Assembly (NCBI GenBank): GCA_023053545.1
Contig: JAKZAN010000006.1
Span: forward strand, 4,469,001-4,533,000
Length of the DNA stretch: 64,000 nucleotides
Direction: 5' to 3'
From: Lepidurus packardi
Taxonomy: Eukaryota; Arthropoda; Branchiopoda; Notostraca; Triopsidae
Below, piece by piece: positions 27,435 through 33,289 of this stretch. The notes beneath the pieces were generated by a model that was given only the letters and a program-made list of their open reading frames with translations, had not been told where the DNA came from and ran no database searches. A program made the translations under genes and the position numbers. Positions within the stretch are counted from its first letter, which is position 1. Every line of letters begins with the position of its first letter.

Positions 27435-29484
27435 GGTTGAGGCAAATTAATTGCGTGTCAACAAACCCACCCCAGTTTGACTTTTGGTGGATTGTGAATC
27501 CAACTGTTTAATTCTAACGGATGGTGCTGCCACTTGCACAGATTCAAAATTACTGCCTAACAGTGCAGCAGAGTTAGCTTCGATGCCGTGGAACGTCGAC
27601 GTCGGAATATGCTCATGCACAAACCAGCAATGGCACGCGACAAACGGACTATAAAGCCTGAGCAAGTCGCTTCACAAGAAGCGCCAAAGCAAAGAAGAAA
27701 GGAAGTCGAGCACTTTTCAAAGGGTTTCGCCTCTGTATCTGTTTTTACCTTTAGGACGTCATTCCTTATTTGCATAATTTATAAAGGTTTTGCCCTGACA
27801 TGCTGCGCTTTTGTGGTGGAACTGTCGCGCTATGGCAACCAAGGCAGGATCTATGAATGCCAAAGCAAACACACCACTTAGCTTTTCCTAGGCGGTGGAC
27901 ACTCGGTTATAGGTTTTTCTGCCAAGCGTTGTGGTACTAGAAGGCTTCCCCTGACGGGGAGAATGGCGTTTTTTTTCTCTTCAATTGTAGTTTTTATTCA
28001 CGGAACATTGCCTGATTGTGCACGTATAGACTGGCTCAAGAAGTCCCTGTGAAGATTTTGGCGCACTACCAAAAATGTAGTTCGCATGGTTCTTCATAGT
28101 TGCGGATAAGGAAACGGTGTTGTCGAACCGGGAAGAGACATGCCAGCCCAAAGTCATTCGGTATGGGTATGGCTTCGATTTTCAATATCCGGGTGCCCTT
28201 CTTTGTTAAACAATTGCTGTCGCTGTTGCTGCAATACTGCGTACAAGATTAAAGGCAGTAAGTCAGCTTGTTTGAGGTTATGTATTCAATTCGTTAGATG
28301 CGATGAGATAAAGCAACATAGTTTCGTTTGCCAAGGTCTCACCGCTCATAAATAAATGTGATATAATAATAAATGTATTTAAGCTATACCTTCAGTATTA
28401 TACGTTGATCATATATAGTGTCATAGTAATATTGTAGAAGCTTTATACCTTCCTTATTTTCTGTGTTGTGGGACGGAATATTTGTATCCGCATTTGAAAA
28501 CATAAAATGGACTGACGCGCTCAGGCGGTAGATTAGCTAACAAACGATTGTGCAATTATTCCGTTGTGTCTAAACTGTGTCTTTAATACTATATGGTGAT
28601 CATAGTGTCATAGTAATATTATAGAAGTTTTTCTTCATTATTTTATGGGGTGTAGGATGGAATCTTCAATATAAACTATAATCTTCATTGTAATATTCTG
28701 GAAGCTTTTATTCATTATTGTCTCTTTTGTGGAACGGAATAGTTTTATTCTCTTTTGAAAGCATAAAATCGAACGAAGTGCTCAAGCGGTAGATTAGCTA
28801 GCAAACGAATGTGCAATTATTCCGTTGTGTCTAAACTGTTTTTTTTTTAATACTATATGCTGATCATAGTGTCATAGTAATATTATAGTAGTTTTTCTTC
28901 ATTATTTTATGGGGTGTAGGATGGAATCTTCAATATAAACTATAATCTTCATTGTAATATTCTGGAAGCTTTTATTCATTATTGTCTCTTTTGTGGAACG
29001 GAATAGTTTTTATTCGCTTTTGAAAGCAGAAAATCGAACGAAGCGCTCAAGCGGTAGATTAGCTAACTTGGACTCGATGTAGTGGGCGGGCCTGCAGGCA
29101 GTGCTTAGTCCATGTCGGTCTGACAAGTGGCAAAACAAAAAGAAGACTTTATCAACTGCTGCTAATTTACCGACAAGTGTGGTTTCCGTACCGCAGAGTC
29201 ATTACGCAAGTATTTCCAATAATAATATGCGTCACCAGCTTGGGTATATATACCTTTAACCTTAACCATTTTACCTAGCTAACTTGTAACTAAATGTAAA
29301 TCTAGCACACTAAATCTAAAAACAAATAAGATGAATCTTGCAAAATAGTGTATAGCTTCTTCGCAATATGCAAAATTTAACCCCGTTATATTTGGTATTT
29401 GTCCACGAAAAATAAATCAATCAAATTCCAATATCTTGTCATCTAGTGTGCTTATGATTTGTACAATTTTACATTTTTAGCAAG
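27435..29484. other. Intergenic region between the Slob-like gene and the GTPase gene
   Basis: About 2 kb between two divergent start codons. The left half should carry the promoter of Slob-like exon 1b. The right half is occupied by a degenerate tandem repeat (28.4-29.07 kb). A 3' splice-site-like sequence ending at 29480 (acatttttag) suggests the GTPase gene has a 5' UTR intron here. No protein-coding exon was recognised. Confidence 0.45.
28400..29072. repeat. Tandem repeat, about 187/264-bp units, three copies
   Basis: The landmark gtgtcatagtaatatt begins at 28418, 28605 and 28869. Each unit ends with a segment like gctcaagcggtagattagct. Copies 2 and 3 are 264 bp apart and nearly identical. 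Copy 1 is 77 bp shorter because it lacks an internal diverged duplication of the segment that ends in ggaacggaat/ggatggaat. Confidence 0.85.
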
Positions 29485-32400
29485 ATGACTGCTCGCAATA
29501 AAACAAAAAATGCAACTAATGCCACGGTGGAACAAGCAACCCTGACTGTAAATGAACGCATATTGAGAGAATGCCACAAACTATATATAGACCCAGACCA
29601 AGGCAAGTACCGTCACCACTCTTCGTAACCTTATTTCCTTCCTTCCGTACAAATATGCACTTGACTAGATGTAAATTTTCCCTCCATTTCCTTCATTTCG
29701 AAGTTCTTGTATAATCATATAAATTTATTTGTATTAATTCTTGCAGGTTTGGTTCGCATTGCCCAGGAATTAGGTTTGACGTTATTGGCCCCGCGGAAAA
29801 AGATCACCGTTTTGCTTATTGGCAATCACTCCGCGGGCAAATCAACCTTCATTAATTGGTACATTGAAGAGCATGTACAGCGGACTGGCGTTGCCATTGA
29901 AACGCAGGGCTTTACCTTCGTCACCAGTGGCCGGAAGCGTGAATCCCTCACGGTATGATAAAAAAGCCATGGCCGGAAATATATATGGTGGGATCTGCTA
30001 TCTCTTTCTATATTATTTTATATTATAGGGCAATGCGACGCTTCATTTGTATCCACACTTCAGGCCACTCCAAGATATCCCTGGTAAGTGCCTCCCCATC
30101 GCTTCCCTTAAACTGCCAGTGACTCATAGTCATAACTATTTGGGTAGAACGTTTGACAAACGGTTACTAAGCCTTTTCTTTGGATTTTTTCAATGAAGCC
30201 CTCTTTACCGATGTTGTGTGCACTCTCAAGAGTTTGTCTATCGTTAGGGTTAGGGGAGCCTGTGTGTGTGCATGGGAGTCTTCTTACTCACGATCGCTTG
30301 GCGGGGCGAGATAATCTGTTTTTATCTAAGCTGAAAACTGAGACGGCTCGAAGGTTCATGAGTTTGACATATTTGAAGGCATGACCACGACTGGTGTGTG
30401 GTGTCCGACGATACGATAAAATGGGGACGGAATAGGACCAAAGCATGTGTCTTGGAAAGATAACGAAAGTTATTTCATACCCAAAAAAATTTACAGTTTT
30501 CACGATATGAAGGGACCCAAGTGATTTTACAAGGATAAACAGAGACGATTTTAGAAGGAAAAATGTCTCGCCGTAAATGTACTGGCGAACATTTGAGTTT
30601 GGAGGATCTTGTACGCCACCACTTCCTTCGGTAGTGGTTAAAAACTGAAGCAATCCACATCCAGGATGTGTCGCTGCCGAGGAAAGTTATGCCGGATGCT
30701 GATAGAGCTGGCTCGAAAGAAAATGTTTGACAGTAGCCACAGTTTCCGTTCTCCTATGGACCTCTTTCAAATTTGTCCGCTAAGCGTGCGCCTTTATAGG
30801 CGGCGTTGGGTAGTTAAAGGCGTTCATTTGCAAATGGATCCATGGCGAGAAAACAACATGTTGGTGTGTTCAAGAGTAAACGAAGAGTACTTTGGCCCGG
30901 TCTGCAGCTCAGTTTTCCCATTTCCATGAAGTTAGTTTCTGATATCATCAATTTTTTTTTTTTTTTTTTAAGTTTGTTTAGTCTTGACAAAAAGTGAAGC
31001 GTAACATCTATGGGGAGTCGTTGGGACAGTCCTTTTCCGGGCACTAGCTTCTGATATCGAAAGAGCTGCCCAGTGAAGGGCTTTCTCGTGGCTTTAACTT
31101 TTCCGCGCACAAAATCTTCCTCAGTGCTCATTTTTCATGGATCCGTGAATTTTGGCACGAGTGTTGTATCTGGGTTTTAATGGTATTTTTTTTTTTTTTT
31201 TTTTAAACTCGTTTTAGGTGTGGTTGATTATTTGGCCACGGAGATTTCTACCTCAAAGCAGAAGAAATTCAGTCTGGTGACGTTCGTGGATACGCCTGGC
31301 TTGGTCGATGGAGACATGAAGTATCCTTTTGATGTCAACGAAGCCATTTTATGGCTGGGAACGTTGGCAGATCTCATCTTCGTCTTCTTTGATCCCATCG
31401 GCCAAGCTTTATGCAAGCGAACGTTGAATTTAGTCGAACAGCTCAACGTTCAACATCCTGAGCGTCTCCGTTTCTATCTGTCCAAAGCGGACGAAGCTGG
31501 GCATGAAGGAGACAGACAGAGGTAAAGTGAAAAACATTTTTTTTTTATTTTTTTTTTTGGCAGAAAGTTTCATTACAAATATTTTCCATTAGGGTGATGA
31601 TGCAAATCGTGCAGGAATTATGCAAACGACCTGGTTTGAACAAAACGGGCTTTGATATGCCCACAATTTACGTCCCGAATCCTAACAAGGTAAAAAAAGC
31701 AAAAATCTGGATGTTATTCTTAGAAAATGGCAAGAATTTTTAATGGATTTGGATGGGGTTTTAATTAGACTGTGCGCTGCGTGAACCAGATCGAAGAAGT
31801 TTGTACTGATGTGGAGAAAACAATCAACCAAACCATTCAGAACACGCTGAATACGTTGGAGAAAGACTGCGAGCGCATATCCGAGTTGGTTGACAAACGT
31901 TTAGAGCAAGATAATCAAGCTAGAGCGCACAATGTCAAAGCATCGGGAAAAGGCGTTTTGTTTTGCTTATTGGGCTTCGTCGTGCCTACAATGCTCCTCC
32001 TGAACTTCCTAGTAGCAATTATGTCTCAGGAATTGCTCAATTCCCTGTTGGGAAGCCGTGGAATGGAAGTACTGGCTCTTTACCTCGTAAGTTGTGGTTT
32101 TTGTTCCAAATTTTTTATCCTGTTCGTAATTTCATAAGTTTTTTTTTTTTTTCTTTATCCTTATTTTATTATTTATTAGTCTCCGATTCGTCGCTTATGG
32201 GACGTTCTTCCAGCCGACTATCATTTCACTGGTTTAATCGCGTTATCCTTAATGTCTCTGGTTTTGATACTTTTGGCGCGCTGGTCGTCTCGTTTACAAA
32301 CCACGCTGAACCGTGGCCAGCGACGCCGCCTAGCGGAGAATAGGGAGTTTGTCCAAAAGACCGTCAAAGCTCAAAAAGTAAACCCAACCCTAAAAATATG

Positions 32401-32489
32401 AAAAAATTACTAATTTTTTTTGTTTATTTATATAGCAATCGTTGTACCAAGAGTATCTGCAGCAGAGTGTCGCTGAGCATGACCTTTAA
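29485..32489 (+). CDS. Uncharacterised EHD/dynamin-superfamily GTPase with C-terminal membrane hairpin
   Basis: Eight exons, 449 residues: 29485-29602, 29747-29952, 30029-30083, 31218-31521, 31593-31689, 31769-32086, 32180-32377 and 32436-32489. The first intron has a GC donor (GCAAGT). The G domain has a P-loop GNHSAGKSTFINWYI (residues about 70-85), then TQGFTFVTSG in the switch I region. DTPGLVDGDMKYPFDVNEA (G3) follows, then LIFVFFDPIG and LSKADEAG (G4-like). Spacing and motifs resemble the EHD/sarcalumenin branch of the dynamin superfamily. No EH domain follows. Instead there is a predicted helical stalk and two hydrophobic segments (GVLFCLLGFVVPTMLLLNFL and LIALSLMSLVLILLA), then a basic tail. 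It probably remodels or tethers an internal membrane. Function is inference; I do not recognise a named orthologue. Confidence 0.85.
30084..31217 (+). other. Large 1.1-kb intron of the GTPase gene
   Basis: Most introns in this gene are under 150 bp, but this one is 1134 bp. It carries a minus-strand ATG-initiated ORF of 105 codons (30814-31131), interrupted by an A17-type tract near 30952-30970. It also has a T-run before the acceptor. No recognised product. Confidence 0.5.
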
Positions 32490-32875: not shown

Positions 32876-33289
32876 CTATGAATTTTGTTCAGGAGATTTT
32901 GCTTTCAACGCTCTTTCTTTTACAGCAGCATCGTAATCCTTGTGAGGAAAGGTTTCGTTCAGGGAAAAGATACCGAGATTGGAGGAGTTCTTATGTAAGG
33001 CAGCTCGGTCAAGATCTTCTTCGTATAATAAGGGTCTTATTGGTTTCGCTGCAACTTTCCGGGCAAAAGTAGGCTCGTATTTAGGAGGGAAGCTCTTGTA
33101 CACGTCGTACCATAAGGGTCTGTCTTCAGATTTCATGGCACCTGATTTTAGGAGACCGGTTACTCTGATGTAAAAGAAAAATAACGAATTAATTACTAGT
33201 TGTAATAATTATTAATGTAATAAAGACAGATGGCTTGAAACCTACCTGGAAAATATCGTTCCTATTCTCTGCAGGCGACTGGACGCCAT
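32876..33289 (-). CDS. mRpS23: Mitochondrial ribosomal protein S23 (mRpS23), short form
   Basis: Two exons: 33246-33289 and 32876-33164, joined in phase 2, giving 110 residues. The N-terminus MASSRLQRIGTIFSRVTGLL and RPLWYDVYKSFPPKYEPTF are diagnostic for the mS23 family, followed by the YEEDLDRA segment. The protein belongs to the small subunit of the mitoribosome. It is clearly shorter than the human protein (190 residues); the end is a Lys/Ala-rich tail (VKERALKAKSPEQNS). No additional 3' exon could be found in frame before the TAG. Whether this is a lineage-specific shortening or a missed exon is open. Confidence 0.85.

Follow-up and report, generated by a model that had tools for sequence, protein, structure and literature searches.

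EHD proteins are described, in an excerpt of PMC13282721, as ATPases that bind ATP, oligomerise on membranes, and detach upon hydrolysis. An excerpt of PMC7016017 further states that EHD and sarcalumenin share ancestry, that EHD proteins are thought to have descended from a bacterial membrane-anchored NTPase, and that the bacterial homologs closest to EHD and sarcalumenin carry a transmembrane helix pair after the GTPase domain. Among the matches listed from the open-licence PMC literature, no title or abstract opening described an EHD-like animal protein carrying two membrane helices. Related eukaryotic proteins of this type may already go by the name sarcalumenin, since the kinetoplastid gene Tb927.10.14910 is annotated as such (excerpt of PMC4210626).

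In the window analysed here (i.e., the whole 64-kb stretch of arthropod DNA), eight predicted exons on the forward strand, at 29485-32489, join into a 449-residue frame closed by a stop codon, in agreement with the gene and protein length proposed in the initial annotation. The predicted features are:

29485-29602 (+): exon 1, residues 1-39; start codon, without a hydrophobic segment
29747-29952 (+): exon 2, residues 40-108; GNHSAGKS (P-loop) at 29821-29844 and the larger part of the switch-I block TQGFTFVTSGRKRESLTG
30029-30083 (+): exon 3, residues 109-126
31218-31521 (+): exon 4, residues 127-227; G3 DTPG at 31289-31300, FDP segment, and G4 SKAD
31593-31689 (+): exon 5, residues 228-260; the G domain ends here
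31769-32086 (+): exon 6, residues 261-366; probable helical stretch and first membrane helix at 31955-32011
32180-32377 (+): exon 7, residues 367-432; second membrane helix at 32222-32278 and basic segment
32436-32489 (+): exon 8, residues 433-449, followed by the stop codon

Six of the seven introns are GT-AG, with intron 1 (29603-29746; GC-AG) being the only one with a non-GT donor. We infer that intron 3 (1,134 bases) holds no further G-domain exon because the G1-G3 spacing of the joined frame, 86 residues, is within the range of 85-98 residues found in the bacterial relatives described below. In the protein, GNHSAGKS occupies residues 65-72, the block TQGFTFVTSGRKRESLTG residues 92-109, DTPG residues 151-154, and SKAD residues 215-218. 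There is no N-terminal hydrophobic segment, and two strongly hydrophobic 19-residue segments (residues ~323-341 and ~381-399; Kyte-Doolittle 2.41 and 2.22) are followed by a basic tail. That is, the two hydrophobic helices and the basic tail noted initially are both present, with a gap of 39 rather than about 45 residues between the helices. As for the surroundings of the gene, a tandem array (264-base unit, 2.5 copies, 90% matches) at 28421-29067 stops some 400 bases short of the start codon, and a frame on the opposite strand just downstream (32876-33208, -) matches the mitochondrial ribosomal protein S23 family, PF10484, with 82.6 bits. The frames from 34066 onward (+) presumably resemble the start of a DDX11-type helicase; a Pfam search of two short pieces of these frames gave no match.

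The similarity of the predicted protein to dynamin-type families exceeds chance because the Pfam scores are over their cut-offs (Dynamin_N, 33.8 bits vs. a cut-off of 27; MMR_HSR1, 32.5 bits vs. a cut-off of 21.9), the best sequence matches among solved structures are EHD4 and EHD2 (E 2e-7 to 3.4e-7, within residues 58-221), and a profile made from the rows of bacterial relatives only scores the full-length protein at 116 bits. The EHD-type G domain previously read from the sequence is thus upheld. Seven PDB sequences matched at E <= 1, six of them EHDs and the seventh Toc34 (E 0.012). As the initial annotation had it, no named family can be attached: apart from Dynamin_N and MMR_HSR1, both of them broad, nothing in Pfam or NCBIfam was above its cut-off, and the seven NCBIfam families reported were not near theirs. 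At E <= 1, no match to Pfam EH (PF12763) or EHD_N (PF16880) was reported for the protein, and the 11 EH-domain matches at E <= 0.1 across the host genome all lie outside the window, which agrees with the absence of a downstream EH domain claimed earlier. The gene product is predicted to combine a dynamin-superfamily, EHD-like nucleotide-binding domain with a helical stretch, a pair of hydrophobic helices, and a basic tail, and to lack an EH domain.

A search of the host genome (a 108.6 Mb arthropod assembly) with the EHD-like protein found, besides its own exons, only an EHD and one weak exon (E 0.125). Hence, the EHD-like gene is, by these searches, a single-copy gene in a genome that also carries an ordinary EHD. 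The latter (G000:C2:10479402-10481247) has EHD_N, G domain, and EH domain, represents the sole match to EHD_N in the host genome at E <= 0.1, and shares about 27% identity with the EHD-like protein over residues 60-222. Another exon of the assembly (G000:C6:7637397-7637591, -) is weakly similar to the bacterial protein P0001 (34%, E 9.2e-5) and possibly belongs to a further dynamin-like gene. The arthropod cuticle family PF00379 has at least 150 matches in the assembly (150 of 266 candidates scored), which identifies the host as an arthropod.

A scan of bacterial and archaeal genomes gave 165 pattern matches, of which six loci were confirmed. Samples of four phyla, that is, the phyla of four of the six genomes with confirmed loci, showed matches at E <= 1e-20 in 19 of 294, 1 of 195, 16 of 58, and 7 of 240 genomes (seed genomes included). 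The 37 bacterial proteins extracted, drawn with patterns and profiles that themselves included the EHD-like protein, all carry GN[HY]S[AS]GKS. When the helix pair was taken as the most hydrophobic segment pair after G4 (i.e., by hydropathy only), both segments of the best pair had Kyte-Doolittle values >= 1.2 in 36/37 proteins and >= 1.5 in 31/37, the only one below 1.2 being L043, a short frame. The distance from G4 to the start of the first helix (TM1) is 108 residues in the arthropod protein vs. a bacterial median of 110 (36 of the 37 within 101-118). Other distances depart further from those in bacteria, such as the G3-G4 spacing (64 vs. 67-71 residues), the interhelix loop (39 vs. 5-31 residues), and the tail (50 residues vs. 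a bacterial median of 86). The G4 motif is SKAD instead of NKAD, with S also found in two of the 37 bacterial proteins (SRID in P0006 and SKCD in L059). The block TQGFTFVTSGRKRESLTG, which had been singled out as highly specific, falls in the switch-I region and has a recognisable counterpart in the bacterial relatives.

Judged from predicted features, the layout of the arthropod protein matches the little-studied bacterial EHD relatives better than the host's own EHD. Our preferred reading, to which we assign a probability of roughly 0.6, is that the gene product is a dynamin-superfamily NTPase, related to EHD and integral to the membrane, on the plan of the bacterial two-transmembrane-helix (2-TM) EHD/sarcalumenin-like proteins. 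In this plan, an N-terminal segment and a dynamin-type G domain precede a helical stretch; two membrane helices then start about 110 residues past G4, and a basic tail follows. In our reading, the architecture would be common to the arthropod protein and the bacterial group while the sequence has diverged far. The helix pair looks like the older layout, since the bacterial relatives have the pair at an equal distance and PMC7016017, in the excerpt cited above, describes it; the hairpin therefore probably did not replace an EH domain, contrary to what was first proposed.

The neighbourhoods of 18 bacterial loci were also compared, with a crude ORF caller that is poor in high-GC contigs and with the family gene masked in L021 and L070. 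Eight neighbour groups recurred among these loci, seven of them in two loci each and one in three loci, from which no functional clue was inferred. The group found in three loci is a gene resembling the exonuclease VII large subunit, which lies on the opposite strand beside three copies of the GN-Y-S subgroup (L023, L073, and L075; Pfam checked for two of the three).

Alternatively, the gene might be a fast-evolving EHD/sarcalumenin derivative that lost its EH domain and gained a hairpin of its own, in which case the likeness to the bacterial layout would be convergence. The scores differ with the side from which they are viewed. From the side of the arthropod protein, the G domain alone is scored higher by 31 of the 37 bacterial proteins than by any of the three EHDs (best 87.4 vs. 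57.4 bits), which argues against convergence. So do the position of TM1, within two residues of the bacterial median, and the lack of a reported EHD_N segment. The protein scores 94.7 bits to L040 vs. 50 bits to the EHD G domain of its own genome, its alignment to the planctomycete P0001 extends over residues 61-423 (85 bits), and exon 2 shares 51% identity with P0001 over 49 residues. From the bacterial side, all six proteins P0001-P0006 are closer to the host EHD (88-126 bits) than to the EHD-like protein (59-85 bits, with the reverse search giving up to 77 for P0003), which favors convergence, and an exon-by-exon genome search with P0001 placed the EHD on top (104.9 bits) vs. 37.3 bits for the best single exon of the EHD-like gene.

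The trees and the C-terminal half bear on the same alternative. Both free trees put the EHD-like protein outside the EHD group, with the bacterial 2-TM proteins, on an extreme branch (8.26 and 3.49 changes per column), but the AU test does not reject grouping it with EHD (p 0.36 and 0.46). Against the bacterial C-terminal profile, the C-terminal region by itself scores 5.3 bits, which 27 block shuffles and three full shuffles, out of 500 each, also attain; that is, by sequence the C-terminal half shows no significant similarity to the bacterial relatives in this shuffle test, a result counted in favor of convergence. The stretch YPF...DLIFVFFDP, which we take to resemble vertebrate sarcalumenin, was counted on the same side. 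Of the 59 columns that do not vary across six bacterial proteins, the arthropod protein keeps about 31 (hand count), and the YGAL[CM]W[NS]L and RGYDF-type motifs that EHD and bacteria have in common are lost, as is GTTGE. The arthropod-side and bacterial-side scores both fit a picture, not proven, in which EHD and the EHD-like protein would be separate branches off the bacterial group, the latter far longer. Taken together, we consider convergence unlikely, though worth serious attention.

That this arthropod lineage acquired the gene from a bacterium by comparatively recent horizontal transfer, with introns added later, is distinctly less plausible. The nearest relatives found are bacterial, as such a transfer would have it, with the host being the only eukaryote searched, but the identity to the bacterial proteins is only about 25-35% and the branch is very long. 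Further, the gene has seven introns and sits in a 12.5 Mb contig beside the mitochondrial ribosomal protein S23 gene. A viral origin was rejected, as scans of viral contigs with the arthropod protein and with the bacterial alignment gave 1 and 33 pattern matches, respectively, none of which was confirmed. In phages, the G domain had no match at E <= 0.01. In plasmids, one Lysinibacillus record was found with each query (E 0.6 with the arthropod G domain and E 8e-9 over 35% of P0001).

Finally, an atlastin- or mitofusin-like fusion GTPase, a likeness raised initially, is highly improbable: in gross order, from the G domain through helices and two membrane helices to the tail, the protein does resemble atlastin and mitofusin, but neither is among the PDB sequence matches at E <= 1, nearly all of which are EHDs.

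Vertebrate sarcalumenin is luminal; the arthropod protein, which was set against sarcalumenin by description only, differs from it in having no N-terminal hydrophobic segment. With EHD proteins (EHD1-4, RME-1), the arthropod protein has in common the dynamin-type G domain, at the identity to the host copy given above, but it lacks the EHD_N segment and the EH domain and has the membrane-helix pair instead in its layout. As far as can be inferred, it would work like an EHD relative, yet it is without these two EHD-defining features. The bacterial 2-TM EHD/sarcalumenin-like GTPases (excerpt of PMC7016017; loci L019-L024 and others here) resemble it in having a QxTG-type motif behind a GN[HY]S[AS]GKS P-loop, in the G1-G3 spacing, and in a membrane-helix pair that begins about 110 residues past G4. 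It differs from them by its very long branch, longer interhelix loop, and shorter tail, and lacks two motifs, GTTGE and YGALCWNL, of the bacterial subgroup closest to it. That is, the arthropod protein appears to share the bacterial 2-TM layout but not all of the bacterial motifs.

If the gene indeed encodes an integral-membrane NTPase on the bacterial 2-TM plan, both protein ends would face the cytosol because the flanks of the helix pair are basic (5 K/R to 2 D/E and 6 K/R to 1 D/E) and the loop is near-neutral (3 to 4). Nucleotide binding would drive dimerisation or oligomerisation of the G domain, and the hairpin would anchor the oligomers so that an internal membrane is bent, scaffolded, or divided without an EH-domain adaptor. 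The protein would thus stay attached to the membrane permanently, with neither nucleotide nor an EH domain acting as a switch. The likely role would be that of a hairpin-anchored, EHD-like membrane-remodelling NTPase, and the gene could stem from an old retained lineage or from a separate acquisition from bacteria. More tentatively, and at somewhat less than even odds, the arthropod nuclear genome may retain, beside a normal EHD, a second EHD-related protein in the bacterial two-membrane-helix form, which is presumably ancestral to EHD and sarcalumenin.

The interest would be modest if the gene proves to be a diverged sarcalumenin-like gene that other animals or protists are already known to have. 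If the ancestral form is indeed retained, it would show whether the EH domain took over from a membrane hairpin or evolved along a separate line, and an older, anchored form of EHD could be studied in animal cells next to EHD itself.
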